This document shows positions 14,946 through 55,397 of a stretch of DNA of 57,960 nt, piece by piece. Source of the stretch: Balneolaceae bacterium (lineage in GTDB: Bacteria > Bacteroidota > Rhodothermia > Balneolales > Balneolaceae); NCBI GenBank assembly GCA_017643365.1, contig JAEPNO010000018.1, positions 1-57,960 of the forward strand, written 5' to 3'. Positions within the stretch are counted from its first letter, which is position 1; every line of letters begins with the position of its first letter. Under the pieces are notes generated by a model. That model was not told the origin of the DNA and did not search any database. It was given only the letters and a program-made list of their open reading frames with translations. A program made the position numbers and the translations under genes.

Positions 14946-14947
14946 AA

Positions 14948-15523: not shown

Positions 15524-15555
15524 GAATTACAATCGTTGAATAGTTTTATTAGTGG

Positions 15556-21512: not shown

Positions 21513-21520
21513 ATCGGATA

Positions 21521-21555: not shown

Positions 21556-21580
21556 GAATTTGTTGTTCAACAATGATTAA

Positions 21581-23143: not shown

Positions 23144-23161
23144 TTTCTATAGTTTTTTAAG

Positions 23162-28059: not shown

Positions 28060-28064
28060 TGCTT

Positions 28065-38181: not shown

Positions 38182-38266
38182 AATAGATTTTTTAAAATGT
38201 GTTTTAATTGTAGCGAAGTGTATAATGTTATTTCTCCTTGATTTATATTTGCGCACTTACCTAATA

Positions 38267-39211
38267 CTAATGCGTTGACTTTTGGCGGATATAATTAGGA
38301 TTAACTGCCAGTTTTGGGGTACGATCAGCCCGGTAAATTCCCCAGTGTTTTTCCGGTTCCCATGGGTCGGGCGATCCTTTCCAATTTTCATCAAAAGCTT
38401 CGAAGAAAAAGGTCAAAATGCCTTCTTTCTCAGTCCATTCCATCAGTTCAGAATAATATTTCTTCTGAAATCCTTCGTTCACATTGCTAACATCAATCCC
38501 TTGCCCATTTGATTTGGTCGCCCAACCGGCTTCGGTAATCACCACAGTTTTATCGGGATATTTTTCTGCAACGGAGTAGTAATTTGCTTTGGTGAATGCG
38601 AGTCCTTCTTTAATGCTTTTGTATTCCCAAACGGGATAAGTGTGTATAGAAATAAAATCCAGAAATTCTCCCAGTTCAGTAAGCTTGTCTAGCCATGGAA
38701 CATAGTTTTCGCAAAATGTAACCTGTTGATTGGTATTAGCTTTCACTTTTTGAGCATAACTTAGAACGTTTTTTTCCGGAACTAAATGGTCGGTCCACTC
38801 AACACAAGTTTCGTTGCCAATCGAAAGTGAAAAAATGATTTCAGGGTACTTATTCCCCATTTCAATCAGTCGGTCAATTTTGGCCTGATTAACCTTCTTA
38901 TTCTTGTCGAGCTGAACTTCATCATAAACTCCACCCCACGGACAATTAGGATTGCTGATTTCAGCGCCGATATCGGCACCCAGCATTATTTTGAAATCCA
39001 GGCCTTCTTTATCAATTACATCCAGCACTGTTTGTGCATGCAAACTGGAATCATACAATCGCAAATACTTCCAATTGTTTTTCAGAATCAGTAAGTCTTC
39101 TTTTATTTCATCGTAGGATGGAAACTCCCCGCCCGGATGTTGTCCATCTCTGAACCCAGAGTAACAAATGGCTTGTCCCGGTGTTAAACCGAGGTTTTCG
39201 AATGTACTCAA
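38267..39211 (-). CDS. GH17-like glycoside hydrolase, cytoplasmic
   Basis: A protein of about 314 residues of the GH17-like clan A group (exo-beta-1,3-glucanase-like). Acid/base and nucleophile are Glu134 in SIGNETCVEW and Glu227 in VITEAGWAT, numbered from the start used here. It has no signal peptide. Start: ATG codons at 39301 and 39277 would overlap the upstream gene by 60-86 bases, and the added residues merely read the upstream gene's conserved C-terminus in another frame. The TTG at 39211 lies four bases after the upstream stop and begins just before the conserved PGQAICYSGFRDG strand, so it is preferred, though an ATG start is not excluded. Closest in the window is the GH17-like lipoprotein at 44025-45299. 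Confidence 0.82.
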   Translation of the reverse strand: MSTFENLGLTPGQAICYSGFRDGQHPGGEFPSYDEIKEDLLILKNNWKYLRLYDSSLHAQTVLDVIDKEGLDFKIMLGADIGAEISNPNCPWGGVYDEVQLDKNKKVNQAKIDRLIEMGNKYPEIIFSLSIGNETCVEWTDHLVPEKNVLSYAQKVKANTNQQVTFCENYVPWLDKLTELGEFLDFISIHTYPVWEYKSIKEGLAFTKANYYSVAEKYPDKTVVITEAGWATKSNGQGIDVSNVNEGFQKKYYSELMEWTEKEGILTFFFEAFDENWKGSPDPWEPEKHWGIYRADRTPKLAVNPNYIRQKSTH

Positions 39212-39215
39212 ATGG

Positions 39216-40121
39216 TTAGTATTTAAGATTGTTATTGCTATCCCAAACGCCCCAATAGGCTCCAACTTCACCTTCATCACTTTTTTTCCAGGCTTCATCA
39301 AACGAAGAGAAGTACATGACTTCGATGTCTTCGTCTTGGGTCCACAAATTTGTATTAATAAAGTATTTCAAGGCATTTTCTTTCGATGGAAGTGCTCCAC
39401 CTAAACCTTCACCTTGGCTAGGCCAACCTGTTTCAGTTATGATCGTTCGCTTACCATTTCCGGCTGCTTTCGCTTGATAATACATTTGGCGCATATGATT
39501 TAGCGAATCCTCGAATGAGGTGCCTTCCCAATACGGATAGCAATTACAGAGAATCACATCGCAATTTTCTGCCAACTCGGGATGTACACTGAATTCGTAA
39601 TACGCATCCACATAGCCAACAGGCACATCGGGTATTTCCTTTTTCACTTGTTGGATGTATTCAACGAGCCTTTCCAGCGATAGATCGTTGCGATAAAGCA
39701 CTTCGTTACCAACTACGGCAATATCAACCATACCTTTTTTGGCTAATTCGATAAGACCGTCGATCTCGCCTTTATTCTTCTCTTCATCATCACCCAACCA
39801 TGCACCTACCATTGTTTTGAGGCCGAATTCTTTGGCTACTTCCGGAACCAATTCGTTGCCTTCGGTGGTAGAAAATGAGCGAATCCATTCACAATGACTT
39901 GCAAGAATTTGCATCCTACGATGGATCTGAGGCTTAGGAATTATATCACCCGGTTCTTGCCCTTCTTCGTACAAACTAAAACAAAAACCATGTATCCCTT
40001 CGGTTAAAATCTCATGGAATAAGTCATTCATTTCCTTTTCGCTTAACCCTTCTAAATAGTCTACTTTAGAAAGCAGCGAGGATTTTTCGAAGCTTAGAAA
40101 TTTTTCTTTTCTATACGACAT
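39216..40121 (-). CDS. GH17 beta-1,3-glucanase, cytoplasmic
   Basis: A 301-residue GH17 enzyme with the family signature TETGWPS (nucleophile Glu230) and acid/base Glu140 in VVGNEVLYR. It has no signal peptide and should act in the cytoplasm on imported laminari-oligosaccharides by hydrolysis or transglycosylation. It closely resembles the C-terminal domain of the preceding transporter fusion, sharing WIRSFSTT, VDAY, NCYP[YF]WEG, SFDE and GLW/GVW blocks and the same 90-residue spacing between the catalytic glutamates. It follows that gene by two bases, suggesting a tandem duplication of the GH17 domain. It is followed by a third GH17-type gene. Confidence 0.88.
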   Translation of the reverse strand: MSYRKEKFLSFEKSSLLSKVDYLEGLSEKEMNDLFHEILTEGIHGFCFSLYEEGQEPGDIIPKPQIHRRMQILASHCEWIRSFSTTEGNELVPEVAKEFGLKTMVGAWLGDDEEKNKGEIDGLIELAKKGMVDIAVVGNEVLYRNDLSLERLVEYIQQVKKEIPDVPVGYVDAYYEFSVHPELAENCDVILCNCYPYWEGTSFEDSLNHMRQMYYQAKAAGNGKRTIITETGWPSQGEGLGGALPSKENALKYFINTNLWTQDEDIEVMYFSSFDEAWKKSDEGEVGAYWGVWDSNNNLKY

Positions 40122-40123
40122 GT

Positions 40124-42502
40124 TTACTTAATTTTTAACTGTTCATTTTTATTCCAAAGTCCCCATCGGGCACCAACATCACCTTCGTGGCGTACTTTCC
40201 AAGATTCATCGAACGATGAGAAGTAATACATATCCACATCGTTAGCTTTACTCCAGGTTGCCATATTGATAAAGTACTTCATCATATTTTCAAGAGATGG
40301 GACTGCATCGCCTACTGTTTGCCCTTCAGATGGCCAGCCGGTTTCAGAAATAATTACTTTTTTACCTTTGCTGATGGAAGACACCAGAGCGTACATTTTT
40401 TCCACCACACTCATCGAATTTTCGATGGAATATCCTTCCCAAAATGGGTAGCAATTAATCATTACTACATCGCAATAATCCAGTAATTCGGGATGATCCA
40501 GGAAAACGAAATAGGCATCAACATAAGCCACCGGTGTATTCGGCAATTTCTCTTTCACTCGCTTGAGGTAATCGATCACTTGCTCTACCGAGAGTTCATC
40601 TCGCATGATGGTTTCGTTACCAACGGTAGCAATATCAACGGCGCCGGTTTTTGCCAACGAAATGAGTTGTTTCATTTCTCTTTCGTTGTTTTGGAGATTG
40701 TCGTCAATCCATGCACCCACTACCGATTTCTTATCGAATTTATGGGCAATCTCCGGAGTTAATTCGTTGCCACCGGTTGTTGAAAATGAACGAATCCATT
40801 GCACGTGTGGAGAAATAATCTTCACTCGTTGCTCAATTTGTGCTTTCGTTAATTGATCGCCAATATTCTGATCATCTTTATAAGGACTGAAGCAAATCCC
40901 TGAAAAACCTTCCGTCATTAATTCCTGGCATTTGGCTGATAATGTGGCAGCGTCGCTATCTAAATGAATAGGCGTATATGGGTTCTCTACCTCAATATTT
41001 GAGAACGAGTTCGCCTTACCAATCTGATAATAACTGGTTTGCTCTCCTTCTTTTTTCTTTACTTTTTTACCACCTTTTCGAGCTTCTAATTTGGCTCTAA
41101 TTTCATTCGCTCGCTCTTCGTCAATGTCGTAACTCCACATAACTAAAATGGCGATGAAAGTACCAAGAATCGGCAATCCGGAGAAGAAAGCGCGAAGACC
41201 GGTAATGCCCGGCCACACCTCGCCGATTTCGATCGGGCCGGGAAGCGCATCCGCACTAAATCCAACAATGCTGAGGATAATTCCGCTCAATCCACCGGCA
41301 ATAGCAAAACCGAATTTAACCATCCACCAGTAAATAGCACCAAAAACGCCTTCGCGACGGATTCCGTAATTCAGCTCATCCAAATCGATCACATCTGCCG
41401 TCATCGACATCATTAGGGTGAATAGGCTACCAATCCCAAAAGAGAAAAACGGAAGCGCAATAATAAACATGTAGGGTTTACCCGGAATCAGTAAAAACCA
41501 AAAGAGTAAATATCCTACTATCGATAGCGATTGTGATACAATGAAGGCTTTTTTCTTGCCCATCATTTTCGACATTTTAGCCACAATCGGTATTACAATA
41601 AAAGTGGTAACGATAGCGCCAAGACTACCAAATAAGGTTGGCCAGATTCCTGCCGCGCCTGCATCCCCACCGAATAAATGATATACAATAACAAAGAAAG
41701 TAAAGGCCGCAACGGTATTAAAAGCGTTGAAGATCAAGAATGTGGAAATACACAATTTTCGGAACGGAACCGACTTAAAAGCTTCTTTAAAGCTGTTAAT
41801 GATTTCCTTAAAACCATTTCCAATATTTGATGCCGTAAGAGGCATGTAATCGTCACGGTCTTCGGTAGATTTTTCTTTGATTATGATGGCCGGAATCATC
41901 GCACAAAACATAAAGATGATACCAACCCAGGTAGCGAGTGTTCGGGTAGCGACTTCAGCAGACTCAAACCACTCCGGGTCGTACATAATTACCCAGAACC
42001 ATGGAGCGATAACCCACGCCCACTGCCCAATCCATTGTGCAATGGCCATAATTTGAGTTCGTTCGTGGAAGTCGTCGCTCATTTCGTAGCCCATTGCTAC
42101 GTAAGGCACACTAAAGATGGTTAGCCCAAGAAAGAATGCCACCGAACAAGCCATGAAATAAGTGAAGTTGTAAATCACGCTATTGTCGGCATACAGCTGC
42201 CACATGATGATAAAACTGAGCCCCATAACAATGGCACCAAGGAAAACATACTGTCGGCGCCGGCCCCATTTTGAACGTGTGTTATCCGAAATAAAGCCCA
42301 TTATCGGATCGGTGAAAGCATCAAAAATACGAGGGAAAAAGAAAATCACGCCCCACATCCACCCGGGAAAGCCCAAATCCTGAACCAATACCACCATAAA
42401 GATGCTCAGTACAGCCGGGAACATCTGATTTGCGAGCATTCCAAATCCAAATGCTAGTTTATATGAATAAGGGACACTCCGTTTTGTAGCCTGTGTAGCC
42501 AT
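40124..42502 (-). CDS. GPH-family sugar:cation symporter fused to a GH17 glycoside hydrolase domain
   Basis: A 792-residue fusion. Residues 1-465 form a 12-segment transporter of the MelB-like glycoside-pentoside-hexuronide family, with the signature DAFTDPIMGFISDNTRSKWG (61-80). A short basic linker (about 465-490, RKGGKKVKKKEGEQ) leads to a GH17 domain (about 500-792) with acid/base Glu630 in TVGNETIMR and nucleophile Glu720 in SETGWPS. With both termini of this transporter class in the cytoplasm, and a lysine-rich linker consistent with that, the hydrolase should act on sugar as it enters the cell. The reading frame is continuous with no sign of a missing stop. The locus context points to laminari-oligosaccharides. 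Confidence 0.9.
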   Translation of the reverse strand: MATQATKRSVPYSYKLAFGFGMLANQMFPAVLSIFMVVLVQDLGFPGWMWGVIFFFPRIFDAFTDPIMGFISDNTRSKWGRRRQYVFLGAIVMGLSFIIMWQLYADNSVIYNFTYFMACSVAFFLGLTIFSVPYVAMGYEMSDDFHERTQIMAIAQWIGQWAWVIAPWFWVIMYDPEWFESAEVATRTLATWVGIIFMFCAMIPAIIIKEKSTEDRDDYMPLTASNIGNGFKEIINSFKEAFKSVPFRKLCISTFLIFNAFNTVAAFTFFVIVYHLFGGDAGAAGIWPTLFGSLGAIVTTFIVIPIVAKMSKMMGKKKAFIVSQSLSIVGYLLFWFLLIPGKPYMFIIALPFFSFGIGSLFTLMMSMTADVIDLDELNYGIRREGVFGAIYWWMVKFGFAIAGGLSGIILSIVGFSADALPGPIEIGEVWPGITGLRAFFSGLPILGTFIAILVMWSYDIDEERANEIRAKLEARKGGKKVKKKEGEQTSYYQIGKANSFSNIEVENPYTPIHLDSDAATLSAKCQELMTEGFSGICFSPYKDDQNIGDQLTKAQIEQRVKIISPHVQWIRSFSTTGGNELTPEIAHKFDKKSVVGAWIDDNLQNNEREMKQLISLAKTGAVDIATVGNETIMRDELSVEQVIDYLKRVKEKLPNTPVAYVDAYFVFLDHPELLDYCDVVMINCYPFWEGYSIENSMSVVEKMYALVSSISKGKKVIISETGWPSEGQTVGDAVPSLENMMKYFINMATWSKANDVDMYYFSSFDESWKVRHEGDVGARWGLWNKNEQLKIK

Positions 42503-42527: not shown

Positions 42528-44012
42528 TTATTCCTGTGAATCCAATACAATTGTTTGTAATGCCTGTCCGTCGATGGTAACTGTTTTTTCCACATTCCCC
42601 AGTTTAATCGACATAGTTTTTGCATTTTCTGTTTGATTAAGCACTACCACAGCTATCGATCCATCCGGATTTTGAGCTGCGGTTACCAATAATTCGTCGT
42701 CGTTGTGTTGATGTCCAATTCGATACGCATCCGGACGAATAAAACGGCTGAAGTGTGCCATAGTGTAATACAATGGCGTGAAATAAACTTCATCGGCTTC
42801 AGGATCAACAATTACCGGTGCTAAACACCAGTTATTTGCCCAATTTGGTCCACCCTGTCGATCGAGTACCATATTCCAATCCACCCAGCCATCAACCCAA
42901 TTATTCAGGGTTCCGATAATATCACGAGCATAGCGATACACCGGTACATATTTTGGGTGTAAATATTTTTGCTCTTCCGGAGCCCAATCCCATCCCCAAT
43001 CGGTGGCTTCTTTGGCCCAATACCAGTCATCATCCTGCCAGCGCGGTACATCGGCATCGGCAGTGGCTTCAGATTGAATCAAATACTTGTCCGGAGCGGC
43101 ATTATGAGCGTATTGCAGAGCTTCTTCGAATACATCGTAAGTGCTGGCATACCAGTGAATGGCAGTCCCATCGAAATACTTGGCAGCTTCTTCATCGCCG
43201 TACATTACATCTACCCATTCTTCCAAGTGATCTCGGTTTTGATCGTAGCCTAGTAATACCACATCAGGATGAGTTTTCTCAAGTTGAGGACCTAGATGTT
43301 TGACCACAAACTCGTTCATTTCTTCGGGCGTGTAGTGCATACTTTCCCAGTTCTCGCCATTACCTAAAGGCTCATTTTCAACCGTAATTCCCCAAATGTC
43401 TATGCCTTGCTCGGCATAAGCATCCAGATATTTAGAGAAAAACAGCGCCCAGGTATCGTAGTATTCGGGCAATAACTTCCCTCCTTTCCAGGCTTTGTTG
43501 TCTTTCATCCAGATGGGGGCGGTCCAAGGCGATGAGATAATTTTAAACCCATCTTTCGAAATCGTCATCGCATCTTTTATAGTCGGGATGATGTCGTCCA
43601 TGTCTTCTTCAATCGAGAAGTTTTCGAGGGTAACATCGCCGGGGATAGGCGCATACGAATAGTTGCTCAATGAAAAATCGCTGGAGTTCATATGCGTTCG
43701 GGTTAGCGAATACCTTGCCCCACTTTCCCCAAAATAGGCTTCTAGAATTTTAGTGCGATTTTCATCACTCAATTGATTGAGCAAGTATGCCGTCGACTCA
43801 GTGAACGATCCACCAAAACCGGTAATTTTTTGAAATTTCTCATCCGGATTTAGCGTGATTTCAACAACATCCTCCGTTTCAACGAATTCAGTAACTTCGG
43901 TTAACTGATTTCCATTTGCTGATGTCTCGTACACTTCCATTTTAAGGTCTTGATTTGAATTACATCCGATCATCAGCAAGGCAAGAAAAATAGTTAGTAA
44001 TTGTGTTTTCAT
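42528..44012 (-). CDS. GH30 family glycoside hydrolase lipoprotein
   Basis: A 494-residue lipoprotein (LLMIGCNSN). The chain shows a GH30 barrel plus beta domain: GFGGSFTES near 65, ISSPWTAPIWMK at 159-170, acid/base Glu214 in TVENEP and nucleophile Glu315 in LIQSEA, then a C-terminal beta domain to residue 494. Members related to this one act as beta-glucosidases or beta-1,6-glucanases. In a laminarin-type locus the likely job is removing beta-1,6-linked side chains outside the cytoplasm. It lies between the GH17-like lipoprotein and the transporter fusion with 12- and 25-base gaps. Confidence 0.9.
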   Translation of the reverse strand: MKTQLLTIFLALLMIGCNSNQDLKMEVYETSANGNQLTEVTEFVETEDVVEITLNPDEKFQKITGFGGSFTESTAYLLNQLSDENRTKILEAYFGESGARYSLTRTHMNSSDFSLSNYSYAPIPGDVTLENFSIEEDMDDIIPTIKDAMTISKDGFKIISSPWTAPIWMKDNKAWKGGKLLPEYYDTWALFFSKYLDAYAEQGIDIWGITVENEPLGNGENWESMHYTPEEMNEFVVKHLGPQLEKTHPDVVLLGYDQNRDHLEEWVDVMYGDEEAAKYFDGTAIHWYASTYDVFEEALQYAHNAAPDKYLIQSEATADADVPRWQDDDWYWAKEATDWGWDWAPEEQKYLHPKYVPVYRYARDIIGTLNNWVDGWVDWNMVLDRQGGPNWANNWCLAPVIVDPEADEVYFTPLYYTMAHFSRFIRPDAYRIGHQHNDDELLVTAAQNPDGSIAVVVLNQTENAKTMSIKLGNVEKTVTIDGQALQTIVLDSQE

Positions 44013-44024: not shown

Positions 44025-45299
44025 TTACTTGTCGACCATTACTTCTTCCAGTGATGGTGGCACTTTAACCGTTTCCATCATGGCATCATAACCGCCGTTA
44101 AAGGTTTTGGTAATCGGCTTGCCATCGCGCGTTAATCCTTCAAAAATTCCGGCGTCCACCAAATCCCAAATCGCATACTTGGCTTCCGCATCAAGATTGA
44201 TCAACCCGAAGTGGTTTTCTGAACCTTCCGGATTTTGCGCATCTTTCCACTTCTCGTCAAAGGCTTCGAAATAAAACACAGAGATATTCTCCTCGTTCGA
44301 CCACTCACGAATGGCATTGTAGTACACCCCGGATTTATACTCATCGGTTGAGCGGGCGCCATCAATTCCATAATGCTCGTTCGAGATGGTTGCCCAGCCC
44401 GTTTCGCCAATATGAACCGGTTTATCGATGCCTAAACTCTGCATGTATTCCACAACATTTTCGTACTGATTTTGAGCATAGTCCACGGCTCGTTCCATCG
44501 CAAGATCGATCTTTTCTTTATCAGAAAGACCCATTTCGTCATCTCTTACTCCCCAAAATTCGGGATGATAATGTGTGTCGTGCATCGGGTAAGTATGCAC
44601 CGATAAGAAGTCAACGGCTTCGATCAGTTTGTTTAAATCTTCTTTGTGATAGCTGCTATCGCCTCCACCCCAGCTTGCAAAATTATCCGAGCTGGTGATC
44701 CACAAATCGGCCGGTAATTCACCCTCGGCTTTTAAATCCTGCAAGTAATTAACCCATTTCAAAATGATGGTTGGCTCCACGAAATATTCCCAAGCCCAGT
44801 GCACCATCGCTTCGTTACCCACGGCAATTATTTTGATGATATCGGGATATTGCTTTGCGAGATCAACCGCAATGGCGATTTCGGTTTCATTCCGCGGACT
44901 TTCTTCATCCCGAATGCGATCCGGCACTGTAGTCCATGCATTTTTGGCATCAATCCAGGCACCCAACATCACATACATTTCAAAGTTTTCATCTTCTTTT
45001 TTCAACTCATCAATTGCCTTTAACACATTTGATGCATGATCCAAATGTACATTGTAGGTTCTGATTAATTTTATGCCCATTGCCTGTAGAATGAGCATAT
45101 CTTCTTTTAGCTGCGCTACCGTTGGCTGGATTTCACGAGTGATTTCGCGGTATCCACCATAGGAAATTGCTTGATATTCGACATTCCCGAGAATCTCTTG
45201 TGCAGTTTTATCTCTATTCATTTTTTTATCCGATCTGGTACATGTTATACCCATTAGCGATGCTAAGATGAAAATCAATAAATGATGTACGTTTCGCAT
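44025..45299 (-). CDS. GH17-like glycoside hydrolase lipoprotein
   Basis: A 424-residue protein whose N-terminus (LIFILASLMGITCTRS, Cys20) is a lipoprotein signal. The catalytic domain shows the GH17-like pattern: ISYGGYR strand, acid/base Glu163 in AVGNEAMVHW, a SVHTYPMHD strand and nucleophile Glu299 in IGETGWAT, then YFEAFDEKWK. It likely acts on beta-1,3-glucan or its oligosaccharides outside the cytoplasm. It is the only GH17-type protein here with a signal. It is followed by GH30 (12 bases) and preceded by the phosphorylase gene (12 bases). Confidence 0.85.
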   Translation of the reverse strand: MRNVHHLLIFILASLMGITCTRSDKKMNRDKTAQEILGNVEYQAISYGGYREITREIQPTVAQLKEDMLILQAMGIKLIRTYNVHLDHASNVLKAIDELKKEDENFEMYVMLGAWIDAKNAWTTVPDRIRDEESPRNETEIAIAVDLAKQYPDIIKIIAVGNEAMVHWAWEYFVEPTIILKWVNYLQDLKAEGELPADLWITSSDNFASWGGGDSSYHKEDLNKLIEAVDFLSVHTYPMHDTHYHPEFWGVRDDEMGLSDKEKIDLAMERAVDYAQNQYENVVEYMQSLGIDKPVHIGETGWATISNEHYGIDGARSTDEYKSGVYYNAIREWSNEENISVFYFEAFDEKWKDAQNPEGSENHFGLINLDAEAKYAIWDLVDAGIFEGLTRDGKPITKTFNGGYDAMMETVKVPPSLEEVMVDK

Positions 45300-45311: not shown

Positions 45312-48300
45312 TTATGAATTAATAAGTCTGTGTTCTTTTATGGATACTTTTAATATCGTCACCTCACCGGTTCGACCGAAAATCATCGCGCTTGTTTTCT
45401 TATCGAGCGATAATCCATTAAATGATTGGGAAGCGCCGTTTTGCAAATATGCTTCAATTCCATCCTGTTCTTCAATTTTGTAGATCACAGGAACCTGGCA
45501 ATAACTGAATGCCAATGCGTTTTTAGGAACCACAACTTCGTTCTCATTTCCATTTAGATTCGAAATCTGATAAGTGCCGGGCTCGGTTAAAAACTCGGAT
45601 TTACGTAATATAACGGGGTTAAACGACAGTACGCCATCCTCTACTTCGATTCCAAGTTCGCCGATTCTGGCCAGAATATCTTCCTTCACTTGTCCGGTCA
45701 TTCCGGGCTGTTGTGCTCCACGGTGATAAGGTGTATGAGAGTATGGATCGGTTGGAAAAGCGCCATACACTTCGGGAGATTTATGGATTCCGATGCCTTC
45801 ACCAATTTCATAGAAATGTTCGGCAAGTTTGGCTTTTACTTCTTCATCAGAGCCTGCTTTTTCTGCCTGATCGCATACTTCGAAAGCTGCCAGATACAAC
45901 TTCGAAACCATGTGCCAGTAAATAGATCCCAATCCCTCGTAGCCATAAAACGTACCCGAGCGTCCGGTAAATGCTTTGTGATTGAATACATCTTCGAAAG
46001 TATCCAAAATGGCTTCCCTTTCTTTAGCCACGAGATCAGCAAATTCGCTGTCTTCAAGTGAAGTCAATGCTTTATCAAGATCGCCGGCATTTTTGAAATT
46101 ACCATTGAAATGATAACCACCGTTCACATCTTTGCTGATAATTCTGGTATCTCCCGTTTCCACCATCTTACTTAATAATTTGGATGATGACACCGCTGAT
46201 TCCGGCACATTATTGCGTTGTAAAAAGCCCGGCAATTCTTTGTTTGGATACAGAATGTAACTTGCCTGATCCTCGCGATACAAGGTGCTTTGGCGCAATC
46301 CTTCAAGCACTTCCAGCGATTCTTCAGCAGTCAAATATCCTGAACTCAATACCGCAACTTGTCCTTCCAGCATTTCATCAAGATAAGAAATGGAGATTCC
46401 ATCGCCTTCAATACTCATGATATTATAGGCATGGTACAAATTGTCATTTCGCTTGTTTGAGCGAATTGAATGCTCTAAGTACTCGTTTGTAACCGCAACA
46501 AATTCTCGTACAGCTGAAATATCTAAATTTGATAACTCACCGGAAAAACCGTTGTTGTAAATGCTATCTCGATAATCACTAGCTGCTTTACCAAGGGCAT
46601 CGGTGATTGTCTTGCGCTGTTCGTCGCTAACTGCTCCACTGATCACCACTTTGTGAGTATCCAGTGTTTTTTTGATGGAATTGAAGCAGTCTAGTAATTC
46701 AACCGAAACTTCAACGCTATCGTCGGTTACGCTAGCCAGTACATTTTGCATGTGTGCTAAAAATCTGCGCAAGTAATACAAGGTAACCATCGAAACCCCA
46801 TTCCCCACCAAGGCGTTGTTGGCGTCGTTCCATTCCGGACGTTGAGTGTTCATCCAGATGCCGCCTTCGGGAATGAGATTTGATACTTTGGCTAAGGTTG
46901 TAGCCAATAACTTTTCGAGCAGACTTACCCGATGAATTTCATTCTTTTTGTTGATGAGAAGAGCTCCATCTGCCCCGATTTCTGCTACTCGTTCTCGAAT
47001 AGCTTCGTCTCCCTCTGCATCAAAATCGATGGTGTCTTTTGGGTTTTTGGCAATGTCGTCGTAGCTCTTAATTCGATACGGAACGTTGGCATATACAAAT
47101 ACATCTTCATCCATTAAAGCCGGGAAAGCTTCCGGTTGATGCTTCTCGTACAATTCCAAAAACTTGAGTAGATAAATGATTTGATGATCACCCCAATACC
47201 CGATGTACGACCATGGATCGTCGGGCTCGATGGTTTCCCAATCGAAACCGCCTTTTGTAACGCGATAAGGGTTGTAGCCATCAAAAGTTGTGGCATTGAG
47301 GAATTTGAAAATCATACCCTCTAAAAACTTCGGGTACGAATGAGCTAATGCTTCCCAGTTTTGGAAAATGTCGCGCCAGTTACCTTCGTAATCAAGGATC
47401 TTAGTTCCATCTTCATTATGGGTATTGATCGAAAAACGGTTCCAAGGACGAGATGGATCGCCATGTCGGCGACTGAATTTTAGTGGCAGATATTCTTTAA
47501 CTAAACGGATCAGATCGGCATCGTCGCTATTGTCGATGGTTGATAGCAACACCGATTGGTCGAAGACTTCCGGCAGGTCGCTAAGCAGTTTTTGATTTCT
47601 TTGAAAGGTCGGCTTACTGGCGTTATCCAAATATTGGGCAAAATCATCTTTTTCAATCTGATAATGATGATCGAAAATACCGCCACGCATGATGTTAAAT
47701 AACACATTTGAATAATGGCGGGCATCTTTAAGCTCGTCGGCACTTAATTGCATGCCATCAGACTGTGCAACCAGATTCTTCAGTTTTTTGGTGCCTACTT
47801 GTACATTTTGATCCACTTCATGCTGAAGCTCATCCGGATCGGATTTCAAACGCTCGTTAAGGGCAATTGTACCTGCGTGGTTTTGATTCACATTGGCTAC
47901 CAAATTCCAAGACTCATAGGTACCGGCGGCCAAGGTTAATTCAGTACAAACAAAGTACGCGCCTTTTTCACCTTTAATATCATCTTCGGCAGTTACTGAT
48001 GCACCATTTCTAAAAGCATCTAATTGAAGCGATGAGACCAAGTAGGTTGGATTTTTTAAACCGGTAGACCAAACAACATTGGCTTTTAATGCTTCGCTCG
48101 GTTCTGCTTTATCAACAGGAATTGCACTCAGTGCGTAGATGCCTAAGCCCGTTTCCGTAACCATTTCCGATCTTTTATATGCATCAAGCAAGTTGCTTGA
48201 TCTCACCTGAAGATCACTATTTACACTTGCCGGCAGAATATTCTGAATACCATCCAGAATAGTGATGGTAACATCCGAATCTGCAATATTTTGAACCGTT

Positions 48301-48779
48301 GAAGTTCGTACGAAACCGAAATCGTTGCTGGATTTCCACTCGTATTTGAACGATAAATTCAGATCATGATTTATCTCTTCGAATAAAACTTTATTGCCCC
48401 ACCGACTTTTATACAAATTTCGCGAAGTATTGTATCGGTGTTCATCGTGTTTAGAAAACGGCTCCCAAACCTGCTTCTTGCCGTCGACAACCACTTGAAT
48501 GATGGTTTTTGAACCGGTGATATCAGCAAACTCTGTAATTTTATCATCTGTGTAATACGGAAACAACGAAAACTCTGAGTTCTTTCTTCCTGCGGTAAGT
48601 CCGCCATTGCTTGAAATGAACATCCAGTGATTCGAATCACTAACTATGCTCATGAAAAAAGGTCGGATTTTATCCGAATCGGTAATCTTGAAATAGGGCT
48701 CGTTATTAATGGTAACAGCTTCTAATTTGTTACTTGCTGTTTGAGTACCCGTTGAATTTTTGTTTGATGATAGGCTCAT
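45312..48779 (-). CDS. Beta-1,3-glucan phosphorylase, GH149/GH161 type
   Basis: A 1155-residue cytoplasmic enzyme without signal peptide. It is related to GH94 phosphorylases and best fits the long beta-1,3-oligoglucan phosphorylases of GH149 (or sister family GH161), which convert beta-1,3-glucan plus phosphate to alpha-glucose-1-phosphate. An N-terminal beta-sandwich (about 20-310) is followed by an (alpha/alpha)6-type domain with GNWRDIFQNWEAL (466-478), GYWGDHQ (527-533) and RPEWNDANNALVGNG (647-661), the last placing the likely catalytic Asp, and by a C-terminal jelly roll. Family choice between GH149 and GH161 is uncertain by eye; length and GH17/GH30 neighbours favour GH149. It conserves phosphate-bond energy from imported glucan. 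Confidence 0.78.
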   Translation of the reverse strand: MSLSSNKNSTGTQTASNKLEAVTINNEPYFKITDSDKIRPFFMSIVSDSNHWMFISSNGGLTAGRKNSEFSLFPYYTDDKITEFADITGSKTIIQVVVDGKKQVWEPFSKHDEHRYNTSRNLYKSRWGNKVLFEEINHDLNLSFKYEWKSSNDFGFVRTSTVQNIADSDVTITILDGIQNILPASVNSDLQVRSSNLLDAYKRSEMVTETGLGIYALSAIPVDKAEPSEALKANVVWSTGLKNPTYLVSSLQLDAFRNGASVTAEDDIKGEKGAYFVCTELTLAAGTYESWNLVANVNQNHAGTIALNERLKSDPDELQHEVDQNVQVGTKKLKNLVAQSDGMQLSADELKDARHYSNVLFNIMRGGIFDHHYQIEKDDFAQYLDNASKPTFQRNQKLLSDLPEVFDQSVLLSTIDNSDDADLIRLVKEYLPLKFSRRHGDPSRPWNRFSINTHNEDGTKILDYEGNWRDIFQNWEALAHSYPKFLEGMIFKFLNATTFDGYNPYRVTKGGFDWETIEPDDPWSYIGYWGDHQIIYLLKFLELYEKHQPEAFPALMDEDVFVYANVPYRIKSYDDIAKNPKDTIDFDAEGDEAIRERVAEIGADGALLINKKNEIHRVSLLEKLLATTLAKVSNLIPEGGIWMNTQRPEWNDANNALVGNGVSMVTLYYLRRFLAHMQNVLASVTDDSVEVSVELLDCFNSIKKTLDTHKVVISGAVSDEQRKTITDALGKAASDYRDSIYNNGFSGELSNLDISAVREFVAVTNEYLEHSIRSNKRNDNLYHAYNIMSIEGDGISISYLDEMLEGQVAVLSSGYLTAEESLEVLEGLRQSTLYREDQASYILYPNKELPGFLQRNNVPESAVSSSKLLSKMVETGDTRIISKDVNGGYHFNGNFKNAGDLDKALTSLEDSEFADLVAKEREAILDTFEDVFNHKAFTGRSGTFYGYEGLGSIYWHMVSKLYLAAFEVCDQAEKAGSDEEVKAKLAEHFYEIGEGIGIHKSPEVYGAFPTDPYSHTPYHRGAQQPGMTGQVKEDILARIGELGIEVEDGVLSFNPVILRKSEFLTEPGTYQISNLNGNENEVVVPKNALAFSYCQVPVIYKIEEQDGIEAYLQNGASQSFNGLSLDKKTSAMIFGRTGEVTILKVSIKEHRLINS

Positions 48780-48843: not shown

Positions 48844-49680
48844 TTATCCATCGTAGCTATACACTCGAACGTAATCTACATACATTGCCTGTGGAAATGG
48901 TGTGCTGCTATCCGGTGAGCCTACAAACGACCCGCCAACAGCAACGTTAATAATGATGTAGAACACATTGTCGTTAAAAACCCATTCGCCGTTCACATCA
49001 TCAGGAGTGATTTCGTTATACATTTCATCATCAACGAAATAGCGAATAAAATCCGGACCCCATTCAATAGCAAACACATGAAACTCTGAATCGAATCGGC
49101 CTGACTTTAAATTGTAGGCAGCTCCTTCTGCTTGCCCGGCCGAGTATCCCGGACCATGCACACTTCCGTGAATGATCGTTGGCTCTTGCCCCCGATATTC
49201 CATGATATCAATCTCACCGATTTGTGGCCAAACAACGGTTCCGTTGGAATCGTCGCCGAGTAACCAAAATGCCGGCCAGATTCCTTGCCCAAATGGAAGC
49301 ATAATTCGAGCCTCGTATCGGCCGTAGGTTTGCTCAAAAATTTCTCTGGTTAAAATTTTTGCAGAGGTGTAATTCGAGTTTTCAAAACGCTCTTTACGGG
49401 CTGTTATCTCTAACATGCCGTTTTCAACTTTGATATTATCAGAACGATCGGTGTAATACTGAAGCTCGTTATTACCCCAGCCCGGTGTTCCGAAAATCTC
49501 TACTCCGGTTCCAATATCGAACGACCATTTTGAAGCATCAACGGATCCTTCAGTATCAAATTCGTCTGACCAAACCAGCGTTGCGAATTCGTTTTCCGGT
49601 TCGTTGGTGCTCTCCTTGCATCCCTGTAACACAAGGATGAAGGAAAGTATCAGTGAAAAAACAGTTAGATGTTTGTTCAT
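48844..49680 (-). CDS. GH16 endo-beta-1,3-glucanase (laminarinase) lipoprotein
   Basis: A 278-residue lipoprotein (LVLQGCKES, Cys21). The GH16 catalytic signature GEIDIMEYRG is at 155-164, with nucleophile Glu156, Asp158 and acid/base Glu161. Other family blocks are WSDEFD (37-42), GWGNNELQYYT (67-77), RYEARIMLPFGQGIWPAFWLLG (121-142) and the C-terminal MYVDYVRVY. It should cut laminarin-type beta-1,3-glucan at the cell surface or in the periplasm. The frame opens upstream at 49761, but those 27 residues overlap the preceding gene; ATG at 49680 begins the lipoprotein signal. It is preceded by the binding lipoprotein gene (22 bases) and followed by the phosphorylase gene (64 bases). Confidence 0.93.
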   Translation of the reverse strand: MNKHLTVFSLILSFILVLQGCKESTNEPENEFATLVWSDEFDTEGSVDASKWSFDIGTGVEIFGTPGWGNNELQYYTDRSDNIKVENGMLEITARKERFENSNYTSAKILTREIFEQTYGRYEARIMLPFGQGIWPAFWLLGDDSNGTVVWPQIGEIDIMEYRGQEPTIIHGSVHGPGYSAGQAEGAAYNLKSGRFDSEFHVFAIEWGPDFIRYFVDDEMYNEITPDDVNGEWVFNDNVFYIIINVAVGGSFVGSPDSSTPFPQAMYVDYVRVYSYDG

Positions 49681-49702
49681 AAAACGTAAAGTGAGTTTTG
49701 CC

Positions 49703-52219
49703 TTAGTTTGATTGGATGATGTTATCGATATAGAAGGTACCGGTGGAATTTCCAGGGCCATCCATAAAGATGGTCAAACGAGGGAAGGAAGCAGTTGAAG
49801 TGAATGTAAAGGTTAACTTTTCCCATCCTGAACCGGTATGATTTTGGGGATTTTCATCAAAATCGCCCTGATCAACCTCAATTTTCATTAACACTGGAAT
49901 GGCAGTTGTTGAATACACATCCATAGTTATAGTTTGGCCATTCGCAAAATTGATATTGTTCTCTAAATCAAAATAGATGCCTTCCCATTGCTGGCCAACA
50001 TTGGTGATCGAACCCACTTTAGATGCTGTGTTGTTTGATCCCGAAACATCAGGATTGTCAACCACTTCGTAGGCTGTTCCGTTAAAGGTTGTTGCAGCAT
50101 AAATCACATTCGAATCGTCGAAGGTAATTGGTAATTCAGGGGCAGTTTTTTCGCCACCGCCAGAGCCACCGGTTCCATCGGTATAGTAGTAGATGTTGTC
50201 TACAAAAATATCTGAGATGGTGTCGTCTGAGACAAAGAAAATCAAACCAATTTTATCCTGAGCGGTAAGATTGAAATCGGATAATGGAACGTCGAAACTT
50301 ACCCATTCTCCTTCGCGCAGAGCTCCCGAATTAAAGGTCACAGACCCGGATGATTCGTTGCCTCCAACATCGTTGATAAGCTGGAATCGAATGAAATCGC
50401 CTGCTGTGATGGCTTCGTTTACATAGATATCAACATGAATGTGCGACATTTCCGAAACATCCACCGGTGAGTTGGATTGATTTGGATCAACACCTGTTCC
50501 GATCCCTACAAAATTGAGATCGGTGTAATGAATGATTCCATCGCCATCAATCAATACATCAGCACCCTGAGGTCCACCGTCGAAACCGGTTCCGCCCAGA
50601 GTAGTTTGTCCATCACCATTAAAGAAGCCGTTGTAGTAATCTACAGGTACATTCGTGTAAGCATCGCTGAAGATAGAAATCACGCTATCGGCATCTTCTG
50701 TTGGAACCGGTGCAGTTTCAATATCAACAGGTTCACCACCATTGCCGCCATTACCACCGTTACCGCCTGATCCATCAGTGCCGTCGTCGTAGTAGAAAAT
50801 ATTATCAACATAGATGTTTGAGATAGTGGCATCACTCACAAAGAAGATAAGTCCAAGTGCCGAGCGATCGGCCAATCCGAAATCAGCAAGTGGAATGTCC
50901 AGACTCAGCCAGTCGTTTTCTAGTAATTGATCGTCGGTGATTCTAATCGAACCGGAGGTTTCATTCCCACCTACATCATTGAGTAATTGGATGGTTATGT
51001 AGTCGCCCGGATCTATGCTTTCCTGAACGTTGATATCAACATGCATGTGAGTCATCTCAGTTGCATCAACAGGATTTACATTTAAGAATGTACCAATACC
51101 TACAAAGTTCAGATCGGTATAGTTGATGATTCCATCACCATTTACGACGATATCGGCACCTTGCGGACCGCCATCAAAACCGGTTCCACCTTGAGTTGTT
51201 TGACCATCACCGTTAAAGAATCCGTTGTAATAATCAACCGGAACGTTGGTGTATGCATCACTAAATATCGAAATAACGCTGTCGGCCGGAACCGTTGGCA
51301 CAGGCGCTGACTGGAAAGTTCCATTCGAAATCACCGTTAAAGAACCGTCGGCTTCGGTGCCATCAATCATACCGGTGATTGTTGCAGTTCCTTCTCCAAC
51401 CACGGTTACAACACCGTTTTCATCAACCGTTGCAACTGCCGGGTTTGAAGAAACAAAATCGAAGTAACCGGACGCAACTGTAAGCATTACATCCTGGCTG
51501 ACTGTAGTTTCATCAGCTAAAGTGATGATCGTATTTAAGGTTTGTTCGAAACCCGTAATTGAATAGGAAAGGTTTACAAAACTGGTAATGGTTAGGTCTT
51601 GCCCGTTGTTAATAGCTGGACGTGGTTGAGCTATATTACCAAGTTTTTCGAATTTCAAATCATCCACCCAAAAACTGTAGCCGTCTCCATTTTCAGGTTC
51701 TTCAGCAAACCAGAACATTCCGGTCATTGCTGTTAATTTATTGGAAGCCGGAAATGGTATCACATATTTTTTCCAGTATGTAGATAATTTAAGACCATCC
51801 AAACGAACTTCGAAATCGTTATCGCCTTCAACACCTTGCCCAAAACCTACGCTGTTTATAACTCCTGCCTTCGAACCTTTAGCATAAAAGGTTAATGCGT
51901 CGTATTCTGTGAGATCTCGTCCACCGTTTAAATCTACAAATGCAGCGCCCGCATAAGATCCTGATGGATCTCCTGCATTAGGCACATCGATACGCATGGA
52001 TGCATCCGAATTATTATAAGTTACATCGGTATCAACCTGAAATGCGTCGAGTTTTGCGAAGCCATCATCGTAGGGAAAATATTCCAGTCCGGCACTAAAG
52101 CCATCGATGAAAACATCCGGATTATTGGTTAAGGTCGGCTCGCTAAGTCCGTCTACCGATCGCTGGCAACTTGCTGCAAAAAAGATGACAAGTAAACCTG
52201 CAAATAAAGAACGAGTCAT
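49703..52219 (-). CDS. Multi-module glycan-binding lipoprotein
   Basis: An 838-residue lipoprotein (signal MTRSLFAGLLVIFFAASCQ). Modules in order: a CBM11-like domain (about 30-190, ending YSFWVDDLKFEKL), a bacterial Ig-like BIG_2 domain (about 200-300, FVSSNPAVATVDENGVVTV), module Y twice (about 312-490 and 517-700, each starting SVISIFSDAYTNVPVDYYNG) separated by a GGNGGNGGNGG linker, and module X (about 710-838, ending TFYIDNIIQSN). Modules X and Y also make up the T9SS-sorted protein at 36805-38181. There are no catalytic residues. It probably holds glucan at the cell surface, like SusE/SusF or surface glycan-binding proteins. The frame also opens at 52243; ATG 52219 starts the signal peptide. 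Confidence 0.85.
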   Translation of the reverse strand: MTRSLFAGLLVIFFAASCQRSVDGLSEPTLTNNPDVFIDGFSAGLEYFPYDDGFAKLDAFQVDTDVTYNNSDASMRIDVPNAGDPSGSYAGAAFVDLNGGRDLTEYDALTFYAKGSKAGVINSVGFGQGVEGDNDFEVRLDGLKLSTYWKKYVIPFPASNKLTAMTGMFWFAEEPENGDGYSFWVDDLKFEKLGNIAQPRPAINNGQDLTITSFVNLSYSITGFEQTLNTIITLADETTVSQDVMLTVASGYFDFVSSNPAVATVDENGVVTVVGEGTATITGMIDGTEADGSLTVISNGTFQSAPVPTVPADSVISIFSDAYTNVPVDYYNGFFNGDGQTTQGGTGFDGGPQGADIVVNGDGIINYTDLNFVGIGTFLNVNPVDATEMTHMHVDINVQESIDPGDYITIQLLNDVGGNETSGSIRITDDQLLENDWLSLDIPLADFGLADRSALGLIFFVSDATISNIYVDNIFYYDDGTDGSGGNGGNGGNGGEPVDIETAPVPTEDADSVISIFSDAYTNVPVDYYNGFFNGDGQTTLGGTGFDGGPQGADVLIDGDGIIHYTDLNFVGIGTGVDPNQSNSPVDVSEMSHIHVDIYVNEAITAGDFIRFQLINDVGGNESSGSVTFNSGALREGEWVSFDVPLSDFNLTAQDKIGLIFFVSDDTISDIFVDNIYYYTDGTGGSGGGEKTAPELPITFDDSNVIYAATTFNGTAYEVVDNPDVSGSNNTASKVGSITNVGQQWEGIYFDLENNINFANGQTITMDVYSTTAIPVLMKIEVDQGDFDENPQNHTGSGWEKLTFTFTSTASFPRLTIFMDGPGNSTGTFYIDNIIQSN

Positions 52220-52256
52220 AATAGTTAAATTTAAATCTTTCATTTACTTATCTCTT

Positions 52257-55200
52257 TTAATTTCTGATGTCGATTTGAATGTATGTACGGATTTCCCATT
52301 CTGAACCGTAGCCTAAATCTTCGGCGCCGGGTTGCAGGGTAACTTCGCCGGTAGCATCATCCACATCGGCAAGTGAGTAGCGTGGTGAGTATCGGTTTAA
52401 GCTGCGATAAGTACCGCGTACACCTAAACGTGTTGTAGGCAGATCAAACCAGTCGGGTTTGCCTAATGTGGTCGAGAAATCAGCCATTAACTGCACCGGA
52501 TACGTTTGGTTGAAATCGCGGTTGTAATCAAAAGGCCCCCAATCGTTGAATCTCGCAAAGGAGTTCAATTTCAAATTTTTGTAGATCATTTGAAGATCAG
52601 TACCGAAACGTGTGATTTTTCGTGGATCGTTACCATTGGCCTGACCTTCCCCACCGTAAATCACGGCAACAAAGCCCAGATCTCTATTCAGTTTTGATAC
52701 TACTCGAGCGTTTACTTCAATCAAGTCTTCGGCAGGAGCAGAACCATTAAAGGCAAAAGTTGAACGGCCATCCGGTAGAATACCAATGGCAGCATCTTGT
52801 ACGGTTGGCAAGTGTCTGTAAATAACACCTAAACTGATTGCCAATTTTGCATCTTCCGAACGGTTGCTGTCCCAGTTGTACATCCAGGTTCCCGGAGTTG
52901 GATCCCAGGTTAGAACCAATTCGCCGGAAGTTTGCTCTCGGTTCGAACGCACTGCAAATGGATCGTCGATATAGTTACGAGGACGTGCACCGCCATCTAA
53001 ACCGGCAGGAATTGGACCTTCGATTGGTTTTTGCCATAAGAAATTTGGTGCGATTTGTAAATTTCCGATTGTGTAGGTGAATCCGGAAAGTACATTCATC
53101 TGGTTGCCACTACCGCTGTCTTTTAGTCTCCAGCCGGTAAACGTTTGGGTTTGATCGGCACCACCGTTGGCAACTAAGCCTTGAATGGCTCCCTGACCAT
53201 ACCAATTAATTAAGCCACCTGTATAGGTCAATTTCATTTTGGCACCAAAGTTATCCATTGGTTTGATCTCATCAACGTAGGCATTGTATGTACCATCTTC
53301 GTTTTCGCGAACCAACTGGAATTCACGTCCGTTTAACGGTTGACCAGCCCAAATACCACCCACTTCAACACCTAGTTTTCCAAATTCTTGAGCGGCATAT
53401 AATGTGAGTCTTCTGGTTTTTGGCCGAGGAATAGCAAATGAACTTTCGGTTGTTCTCTGCTGCTCTAAATCTTCATGGAAAATCCCGGTTAGTTGTGTTT
53501 GGCCAACCATCTTGGTGTATTTAATTAAGAAAGCCGGATTGGCTCCCCACCATAATTCAGGACCAAAAGCGGCTTTAAGTCCGTCGAACTGATAACGCCC
53601 TTCAACTTCGAAACCGAATGGTGCAGTACCGTTATAAATATCGATGTTTGGGCCATAATTCGCCTCGGGATATAATCCAAAGAAATCGCCCTCATATCCC
53701 CAGTGATAACGCCCTGTTCGGTAAAATCCGGTGATATCAAAATACTTGCTCGTCCATTCGTACTCGGCGCTGTAAATAGCCACGCGATTGACATCCGTAA
53801 GCGTAACATCACCGTTGGGTCCTTCAACATCTACAGGTCGGCCGCGATTCTCGTAAAAGATTTCGTCGATCGGATTACCAGGAACATTGCCCAAAATACT
53901 GGTAACCAAATTCGCCCGGATATTTGGAGCAGGATTAGCTTCCACTCCGATAAAAAATGTTTCTAAATGATCGAATCCCTGCTGAGTTGGATATTCTCTT
54001 TCGTTTGGATTCGGCTCTTCGGGAGTAGTGATATAAGTTCCGCCGGTGCTGTAGGTTCTAAAATCAGCGGTGAATTGGCTGAGTCGAATAATATCTGCTG
54101 CCGAGCCTTCTAACGCGGCTTTATCGCCACGAGCTTTTAGTACAGCACCTTGAATGGAAATTGCATCGAAATATTTTTCTAAATCGTAAAGAGAGGCGTC
54201 TTCATCATATACATCATAGCGATGCGCTTCTTGCAATACATAATAAGATGCACGTGGGAAAAGCTCATAATAACCAAAAGGATCGGTTGGCCCTTTTGCG
54301 GTAATACCAAACCACTCTTCGTTCATGTTGTTTTGGCCATTCGCAAAATCGAACTGGTAGCCACCATTTGCCCAAGAAGCATTGATATCATGTATATCTA
54401 AATTTTCAACTTGGCCATATTTCCACCAACCATCACTAAACTGGAAAGTAAAACCACCAATAGAATTGTTGTTTTTACCCATTCCGGCTGCGTTCTCGTA
54501 AATCTCTTTCCAGTTTCCTTTTTGATAATATGCCTGATCGCCTTGCGCTTCTTTTAAGGTTCGAGCGTTAAACGCATCTGAGCCAAACTCGGTAAGTAAA
54601 ACAGGCTTGTCGTATTCGTTGGCTACACGCTCGTATAAATCGGTAAATGAAATACCGCGATAGGTGTTAGTTCCAAAAATGTCGATATCCGGGGCATGCT
54701 CAGCAATTTGATCCATAAACAACAAATCACCATTACAGAGCGCAATCGGGTGATTGGTACTGATATTCTTCATCGCCAACGTTGCTTCGTTAAACAACTT
54801 GTACATGTCGATAGCTTTTTGTGTCGACTTTCGATCTTCCATCGGGATGTCTTCGGTTTCAGCACCTTCCCAGAAAAGACCATAGTTGTTTTCGTTCCCT
54901 AATAAGAACAATAGTAAACCCGGAGTGTCTTGATACTCGCTCACTAATTGAGTGGTTTCGGCAAGTAGCAATTCCCGCACTCGTGGATCACCATAATCTG
55001 TGTTTGGGGTCCACACACCATCAAGGGTCAGCCCATATCTACCGAATGAGTGATTAAGCATGGTATAAATTCCGTAGTTCTCGTAGATATAAGTAATCCA
55101 CTCGGGCTGAATTCCGGTATATACCCGAATTGCATTTACTCCCATATTTTGAAGTAAACCCATTTCGTAATCAAGGGCTTGCTTAATAAAAGCCGGTTCC

Positions 55201-55397
55201 TGATTCCATAAACTGTAAGAGTAATTAGTGCCTCTCGGGAAGTAATCCCAATTCATACCATTAATCATTAATGGCTCGCCGTCCACCATCATCACCCAAC
55301 CTTCGTTGGTTTTTTGAACTTGGATATCGTTTGATTGTGCGGCTAGTTGAGTTGAGAAGAGAAAAGAAAGTGCTAAAAACGTGGTAATTTTTTTCAT
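52257..55397 (-). CDS. Clan-A glycoside hydrolase fused to an outer-membrane beta-barrel
   Basis: A 1046-residue protein, first in the locus. After a signal peptide (ending LAAQ) comes a TIM-barrel glycosidase of the GH2/GH5/GH72-like type (about 25-400). Its probable acid/base is Glu169 in FLLGNENNYG and its probable nucleophile Glu270 in LLTEFGSDAF; MINGMNWDYFPRG and NAIRVYTG are typical first strands. The remaining 570 residues (about 475-1046) are alternating amphipathic strands rich in Tyr, Trp and Gly (VAIYSAEYEWTSKYFDITGFY, FGAKMKLTYTGGLINWYGQG, IAPNFLWQKP) ending in RTYIQIDIRN, as expected for an outer-membrane barrel. No TonB box or plug is seen, so it is porin-like. It may cut and pass glucan fragments in one protein; activity on beta-glucan is inferred from context. 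Confidence 0.85.
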   Translation of the reverse strand: MKKITTFLALSFLFSTQLAAQSNDIQVQKTNEGWVMMVDGEPLMINGMNWDYFPRGTNYSYSLWNQEPAFIKQALDYEMGLLQNMGVNAIRVYTGIQPEWITYIYENYGIYTMLNHSFGRYGLTLDGVWTPNTDYGDPRVRELLLAETTQLVSEYQDTPGLLLFLLGNENNYGLFWEGAETEDIPMEDRKSTQKAIDMYKLFNEATLAMKNISTNHPIALCNGDLLFMDQIAEHAPDIDIFGTNTYRGISFTDLYERVANEYDKPVLLTEFGSDAFNARTLKEAQGDQAYYQKGNWKEIYENAAGMGKNNNSIGGFTFQFSDGWWKYGQVENLDIHDINASWANGGYQFDFANGQNNMNEEWFGITAKGPTDPFGYYELFPRASYYVLQEAHRYDVYDEDASLYDLEKYFDAISIQGAVLKARGDKAALEGSAADIIRLSQFTADFRTYSTGGTYITTPEEPNPNEREYPTQQGFDHLETFFIGVEANPAPNIRANLVTSILGNVPGNPIDEIFYENRGRPVDVEGPNGDVTLTDVNRVAIYSAEYEWTSKYFDITGFYRTGRYHWGYEGDFFGLYPEANYGPNIDIYNGTAPFGFEVEGRYQFDGLKAAFGPELWWGANPAFLIKYTKMVGQTQLTGIFHEDLEQQRTTESSFAIPRPKTRRLTLYAAQEFGKLGVEVGGIWAGQPLNGREFQLVRENEDGTYNAYVDEIKPMDNFGAKMKLTYTGGLINWYGQGAIQGLVANGGADQTQTFTGWRLKDSGSGNQMNVLSGFTYTIGNLQIAPNFLWQKPIEGPIPAGLDGGARPRNYIDDPFAVRSNREQTSGELVLTWDPTPGTWMYNWDSNRSEDAKLAISLGVIYRHLPTVQDAAIGILPDGRSTFAFNGSAPAEDLIEVNARVVSKLNRDLGFVAVIYGGEGQANGNDPRKITRFGTDLQMIYKNLKLNSFARFNDWGPFDYNRDFNQTYPVQLMADFSTTLGKPDWFDLPTTRLGVRGTYRSLNRYSPRYSLADVDDATGEVTLQPGAEDLGYGSEWEIRTYIQIDIRN

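Follow-up and report, generated by a model that had tools for sequence, protein, structure and literature searches.

Several described systems come close to the gene considered here, a glycoside hydrolase (GH) fused to a predicted outer-membrane barrel, which lies on a 57,960-nucleotide stretch of DNA (the window) from a Balneolaceae bacterium (GenBank assembly GCA_017643365.1, contig JAEPNO010000018.1). In the SusC/SusD glycan importers of Bacteroidota, too, an outer-membrane barrel and a lipoprotein are encoded side by side, leading a glycan locus that includes a GH16 lipoprotein. Unlike SusC/SusD, the fusion has 24 predicted strands, no plug or carboxypeptidase-like domain and an attached enzyme; it matches neither TIGR04056 nor the Pfam TonB receptor models, and its partner has no SusD match. 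Substrate-specific porins and AlgE have 16 to 18 strands. LamB, OprD/Occ, chitoporin and AlgE resemble the fusion in lacking a plug, in their long outer loops and in being listed among its structural neighbors, but they have no enzyme and no lipoprotein partner. The ushers PapC and FimD share the 24-strand barrel and were the only listed neighbors aligned over the whole barrel half, whereas the identity is 9%, the fusion has no plug insertion, and Pfam showed no usher or pilus family among the locus proteins scanned; ushers contain a plug as well as domains for chaperone binding, and they handle pilus substrates.

Covalent coupling of transport and hydrolysis has been published before for the MFS-GH17 fusion of laminarin loci in Formosa (PMC6246565), and such a fusion is also present in the window locus. 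It differs in belonging to the inner membrane and in its folds; what is new here is an outer-membrane counterpart. The solved relatives nearest to the enzyme half, which share its NE and TEFG motifs, are GH158 enzymes (BuGH158 and GH158(Pro)), but identity is only about 12 to 20% and other clan GH-A families tie with them in VIA-align Z score. Where the fusion has its predicted membrane barrel, BuGH158 ends in an Ig-like (immunoglobulin-like) domain (PMC7157763). In Muricauda laminarin clusters that match a laminarin-induced Formosa cluster, a "GH2 beta-glycosidase" occupies the same upstream place with GH16 and GH149, and a Bacteroides finegoldii relative of the fusion is also named GH2. The Muricauda protein was treated as a GH2 enzyme, with no mention of a membrane barrel in the available text (PMC13188888), and probably belongs to the same family as the fusion. 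Carbohydrate-active enzyme (CAZyme) clusters with GH149 yet no susCD have been noted (PMC5827456). The literature covered, which mostly excludes subscription papers and bioRxiv preprints, showed no case of a glycoside hydrolase joined to an outer-membrane barrel. The fusion is built of parts of known kinds in a combination without a found report, and it is not a SusC, a TonB receptor, an usher, or an autotransporter.

The fusion is encoded by a single open reading frame (ORF) that occupies exactly positions 52257 to 55397 on the minus strand, with one full copy in its own genome. This bears out a sequence-only reading of the window, which had proposed an enzyme-barrel fusion in a glucan locus. 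As judged by eye, the enzyme begins directly after the signal peptide, where a TonB-dependent transporter would have its TonB box, and a lipobox-like match was seen in only 4 of 111 blast-labelled proteins, within the hydrophobic stretch. In the model, the N-terminal half forms a TIM barrel, with N168-E169 just past strand b4 (residues 161 to 166) and E270 within strand b7 (266 to 271). Both glutamates were invariant in 64 aligned full-length proteins, as well as in 108 barrel-bearing and 9 barrel-less rows. With its TIM barrel, an NE after b4 and a Glu at the end of b7, the enzyme falls in clan GH-A; the earlier claims of a clan-A glycosidase with Glu169 and Glu270, placed at barrel strands 4 and 7, thus agree with the model.

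GH158 beta-1,3-glucanases came first in Foldseek and gave a local match in phmmer (E 1.3e-4). An enzyme profile matched GH158 at E 0.0011, with the NE and TEFG motifs aligned, and VIA-align placed the enzyme on GH158 9p26 with a Z of 26.1 and a root mean square deviation (RMSD) of 3.1 over 288 residues. This Z is tied with those of GH2, GH5, GH157, and other clan GH-A enzymes, and the VIA-align and Foldseek lists do not exclude families absent from them. GH2 folds were present among the VIA-align neighbors; at E values as lenient as 0.1, the Pfam GH2 TIM-barrel model did not match the fusion protein. For the whole fusion protein, Pfam gave just a subthreshold GH53 match (17.5 bits versus a cutoff of 24), and NCBIfam gave none. 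A 40-residue stretch (322 to 362) was badly modelled yet conserved (mean of 0.84 over residues 320 to 364); it includes three tryptophans (W324, W325, and W362), and a substrate loop is a possible role. Helix 403 to 420 was confident with the enzyme and less so without it, with predicted local distance difference test (pLDDT) blocks of 91 to 93 in the full-length model versus 53 to 71 in the half predicted alone. The helix therefore belongs to the enzyme, which leaves a linker of about 16 residues (421 to 436) before the barrel.

In the full-length model (pLDDT 77, predicted TM-score [pTM] 0.63), the C-terminal half was given 24 strands over residues 437 to 1044, and the same 24 strands were obtained when residues 396 to 1046 were predicted alone (pLDDT 78, pTM 0.73). 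Median length was 27.5 residues for the loops that follow odd strands and 2 for those that follow even ones (permutation p 6e-5). Hydrophobicity alternated between the inner and outer sides of the strands more strongly than in any of 5000 shuffles. All 50 rows listed by VIA-align for this half were outer-membrane barrels. AlgE was the top neighbor (Z 15.0, RMSD 6.2, 294 aligned), with an alignment that ended at residue 504 of 651, and only the 24-strand ushers covered the half from about residue 40 through its last residue (best 7lhh_C, Z 14.0, RMSD 5.0, 363 aligned). An even strand number, amphipathic strands, alternation of loops and turns, and a fold like that of known barrels all describe a predicted outer-membrane beta-barrel. 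No insertion between strands was longer than 36 residues, which leaves no plug domain, and Pfam found neither a Plug nor a receptor barrel in the fusion protein.

The barrel without a plug proposed in the sequence-only reading is supported by two models, although its length of about 570 residues falls short of the roughly 608 modelled, and the strand count that it had asked of structure prediction came to 24 in each of them. A soluble beta-sandwich, named there as a refuting outcome, was rejected by both models, the loop alternation, and the barrel-only structural neighbors. The profile searches of each half that it had suggested led to GH158 for the enzyme, whereas the profile of the C half gave nothing useful against PDB sequences. 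PHROGs gave nothing useful either, and Pfam on 64 C halves returned four weak, scattered families, none of them a barrel family, with no family for the first C half.

The loop pattern places both barrel termini on the short-turn side, and the enzyme precedes strand 1. The short turns of outer-membrane barrels face the periplasm, so the enzyme should, on the model, hang at the periplasmic mouth of the barrel. The enzyme had earlier been put at the channel mouth; if the outer mouth was meant, this is probably wrong. Pore-facing residues were more conserved than lipid-facing ones (0.79 versus 0.67, p 1.8e-6); the two sets were split by hydrophobicity, which makes their composition figures circular and the conservation difference less so. 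The predicted extracellular loops L3, L4, L7, and L11 had a mean conservation of 0.90 to 0.98, compared with 0.57 to 0.81 in the other eight. An anchor would not need a conserved pore side and four conserved outer loops, so the modelled barrel appears to be more than an anchor and to form a channel. Within it, loop L3 is a candidate pore constriction or sugar site.

The fusion is spread over hundreds of species. Relatives are encoded in at least 586 genome_contigs stretches, of which the best 80 (L003 to L082) were kept; these are 59 to 77% identical to the fusion and nearly full length in all but a few. The record titles of relatives include Balneolaceae, Flavobacterium, Chryseobacterium, Saprospiraceae, Cyclobacteriaceae, and Chitinophagaceae, among others, and the full protein was matched in 46 of 394 sampled genomes (E 1e-10). 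Among the 80 loci, the lipoprotein gene came directly after the fusion wherever there was room (74/74), and all 64 loci with over 5 kb of downstream sequence kept the order enzyme-barrel, lipoprotein, GH16. Genes for GH149, GH17, GH30, and MFS-GH17 often come after this triplet. SusC together with SusD was found in a single locus (L073), with at least 8 kb on both sides available in 51 of the 80. The B. finegoldii relative (58% identity; locus at L274 9937-22903) is followed by genes for a hypothetical lipoprotein, GH16, a fimbrillin, a hypothetical protein, and BglX, and SusC/SusD is not annotated there; its record names it "glycoside hydrolase family 2 TIM barrel-domain containing protein." This gut record is typed as a plasmid yet carries rpsA and a valine-tRNA ligase gene, and it may therefore be a chromosome fragment. 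Copies were also seen in metagenome-assembled genomes labelled Thermoanaerobaculia, Verrucomicrobia, and Calditrichia (L056, L064, and L055), the first of which lies close to Saprospiraceae in the tree and is probably misbinned.

The barrel and the N-domain of the partner lipoprotein occur together. A profile of the barrel half matched 34 of the 394 genomes; the barrel was whole in 31, split over contigs in one (G204), and decayed with stops in another (G231), and in G115 (L147 2025-3464) the enzyme gene is followed by a stop and a 93-residue barrel remnant, a recent barrel loss as read from the sequence. No genome had an intact barrel without the enzyme. The N-domain was found in 35 genomes at E 1e-5. 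In 32 of them E was below 1e-30, and this set coincides with the barrel-matching genomes once G115 and G231 are taken away, with none among the other 362. The weaker matches (G126 at 4e-21, G392, and G140) were in genomes without a barrel match. None of nine genomes with a close barrel-less enzyme (53 to 67% identity) carries the N-domain. In a tree read by eye, these nine enzymes are scattered over about five positions among the barrel-bearing rows; the tree was built by a quick method without bootstrap, with a midpoint root, very long outgroup branches, and many deep forks open, and 3 of 109 barrel rows were left out because the crop motif was missing. Since barrel-less rows are nested among barrel-bearing ones, the fusion seems ancestral, with barrel and lipoprotein lost together several times. 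A 599-residue paralogue (L002 541-2340; contig C1:20868-22481 of the same genome) joins a GH158-like enzyme to an Ig-like stretch (by eye) and an N-domain-like domain, which suggests that the lipoprotein N-domain is a carbohydrate-binding module.

The coordinates of the fusion, its parts, and the surrounding genes are collected in Table 1.

Table 1. Features of the enzyme-barrel fusion and its glucan locus (window positions)
Feature	Position	Strand	Basis or remark
Enzyme-barrel fusion	52257..55397	-	1046-residue ORF; relatives in at least 586 genome_contigs stretches; AlphaFold 2 (AF2) model
Signal peptide, residues 1-21	55335..55397	-	Type I by eye, without lipobox
Clan GH-A TIM-barrel enzyme with its C-terminal helices, residues 22-420	54138..55334	-	Model strands and helices; GH158 best in Foldseek and phmmer
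Glu169 codon, probable acid/base	54891..54893	-	Invariant; aligned with LGNE of GH158
Glu270 codon, probable nucleophile	54588..54590	-	Invariant; aligned with TEFG of GH158
24-strand outer-membrane barrel (predicted), residues 437-1046	52260..54089	-	Two models, loop alternation, structural neighbors, conservation
Predicted extracellular loop L3, residues 560-593	53619..53720	-	94% mean conservation
Partner lipoprotein: lipobox (AASC), barrel-associated N-domain (residues 29-240), Big_2 and repeated domains	49703..52243	-	Next gene in 74/74 loci with room
GH16 glucanase, lipoprotein-like N terminus	48844..49761	-	Pfam GH16 2.6e-24; third triplet gene in 64/64 loci
GH149 beta-1,3-glucan phosphorylase, no signal peptide by eye	45312..48779	-	NCBIfam NF058639 1751 bits, cutoff 1150
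GH17-like enzyme	44025..45299	-	Pfam GH17 8.4e-6, slightly below cutoff
GH30 enzyme, probably beta-1,6-glucan	42528..44012	-	Pfam GH30 4.7e-78; NCBIfam endo-1,6-beta-glucanase 272 bits, below cutoff of 700
MFS/GPH transporter fused to GH17	40124..42502	-	Pfam MFS_2 and GH17
Two more GH17 genes (39216-40121 and 38267-39301)	38267..40121	-	Pfam
Protein with type IX secretion sorting tail	36805..38256	-	Pfam Por_Secre_tail 1.7e-12
LuxR-type regulator	36051..36701	-	Pfam GerE 5.4e-6

The locus was said earlier to lack SusC/SusD, and there is indeed none by the fusion gene; the window does hold a pair at 21581 to 26182, which is 26 kb away in another gene cluster. No SusD model of Pfam or NCBIfam matched the partner lipoprotein, and no SusC/RagA or TonB receptor model matched the fusion protein, while with the same libraries SusC/RagA and TonB receptor matches were both found in the protein at 23162 to 26182. 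No glycosyltransferase, usher, or pilus family was found by Pfam among the locus proteins scanned. The distant pair is clustered with three large FG-GAP/ASPIC-UnbV proteins and a SusC-like gene missed by Pfam (15556 to 18264), together spanning 11685 to 31427. The MFS/GPH-GH17 fusion, known from marine flavobacteria, is here carried by a Balneolota-like genome.

Whether the barrel stands in for SusC/SusD, as the sequence-only reading had suggested, was addressed through GH149, which is present in 69 of the 394 genomes. Sixty-three neighborhoods were read (62 fetched plus the window; 6 left out), with SusC/SusD called by profiles from 8 SusC-like and 8 SusD-like regional proteins over at most about 36 kb and less on short contigs. 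The fusion was found in 29 of the 63 regions, 25 of which had no SusC/SusD nearby, and SusC/SusD without the fusion was found in 3; in G066, G204, and G301 the fusion was at the region edge or on another contig. G304 has SusC-SusD followed by an enzyme-only gene, and G103, its sister row (support 98), carries both importers, which suggests that the barrel became dispensable after SusC/SusD arrived. SusC/SusD also accompanies an enzyme-only gene in G100 and G119. An association of barrel loss with SusC/SusD gain was tried and was not significant (4/29 versus 3/8, Fisher p 0.16, with genomes rather than independent events as rows and G328 left out because its enzyme is on a 3-kb contig). Replacement is thus supported only in part: SusC/SusD is absent near 25 of 29 barrel genes, but the loci with both importers show that the barrel is not a substitute in every case.

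We consider that there is about an even chance that the fusion is a substrate-specific outer-membrane glucan channel carrying its own enzyme. In this scheme, the surface GH16 and the partner lipoprotein would cut and hold beta-1,3(1,6)-glucan, and oligosaccharides would diffuse through the plug-less 24-strand barrel, steered by the conserved outer loops and the pore wall. The attached clan GH-A enzyme at the periplasmic mouth would shorten the emerging oligosaccharides, and we propose that cutting at the exit would keep the gradient inward without TonB. The GH17 and GH30 enzymes and the MFS-GH17 carrier would then bring the products to the cytoplasmic GH149. Transport, substrate, periplasmic side, hydrolytic trapping, TonB independence, and lipoprotein contact are all features that we infer for the fusion. 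More tentatively, and with the balance tipping slightly against it, the family could form a class of TonB-independent glycan importers, common in Bacteroidota and Balneolota, in which an open 24-strand pore is paired with an exit enzyme that drives uptake and a surface lipoprotein in the role of SusD.

Several points weigh against the channel. TM-scores to solved barrels are low (0.16 to 0.34 by query length), and the models were built from a fairly uniform alignment (59 to 77% identity). With 24 strands and no plug, the pore would be very wide if the loops, modelled in part at low pLDDT, did not close it. The linker is too uncertain in the model to rule out threading through the pore. Four of the 29 barrel loci also carry SusC/SusD (G053, G103, G226, and G355, all of one family), and six of nine barrel-less loci, at least three of them on short contigs, lack SusC/SusD as well as the barrel, which means that the channel is not always required.

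The uncertain linker would also suit an autotransporter-like display, in which the barrel serves for secretion, carrying the enzyme through or holding it outside, and the enzyme acts on the cell surface as an endo-glucanase. The order of an N-terminal passenger and a C-terminal barrel is that of type V secretion, and several barrel-less relatives have a lipobox-like N terminus. However, type V barrels have 12 or 16 strands rather than 24, no autotransporter family was matched in Pfam, and helix 403 to 420 lies against the enzyme in the model instead of inside the pore. Display also gives no reason for the conserved outer loops or the obligate lipoprotein partner, and we regard it as unlikely. 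Survival of the enzyme through repeated barrel loss would fit a barrel that passes no sugar and simply keeps a periplasmic glucanase near other importers, such as the SusC/SusD of the 4 loci. This is rather more doubtful still, given the strong conservation of pore-facing residues and four extracellular loops, the absence of the partner N-domain from 9 of 9 genomes with barrel-less enzymes, and the 25 of 29 loci without nearby SusC/SusD.

The arrangement SusC-SusD-...-enzyme-barrel-lipoprotein-GH16 in G053, G103, G226, G355, and L073 could instead mean that the fusion is a second importer beside SusC/SusD, for another glucan size class, and replaces nothing. We hold this to be no more probable than a mere anchor, since most loci lack a nearby SusC/SusD (its presence elsewhere in the genomes is not excluded) and the G103/G304 pair suggests that the barrel is dispensable once SusC/SusD has come in. 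Finally, AlgE as top structural neighbor might point to a channel that exports polysaccharide and edits it with the attached enzyme, along the lines of the AlgE or PgaA/BcsC systems. AlgE led the best usher by only 1 Z and was aligned over only part of the barrel half, and the locus has a phosphorylase, hydrolases, and a sugar symporter with no glycosyltransferase family among the proteins scanned; export is therefore highly improbable.

Because SusC/SusD pairs are the mark by which glycan loci of Bacteroidota are detected and counted, a widespread locus type that mostly has no such pair nearby would escape notice or be filed as incomplete. If the channel reading is true, the channel has been hidden behind the enzyme name "GH2 TIM barrel-domain protein," including in a human gut Bacteroides, and, given the MFS-GH17 of the same operon, cutting would be joined to transport at both membranes. 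It raises the question of whether hydrolysis alone, without TonB, is able to pull oligosaccharides across the outer membrane, for which the lineages that kept the enzyme and lost the barrel are ready comparisons. Laminarin is a very large marine carbon flow, and the fusion may be an unrecognized route of bacterial sugar import.

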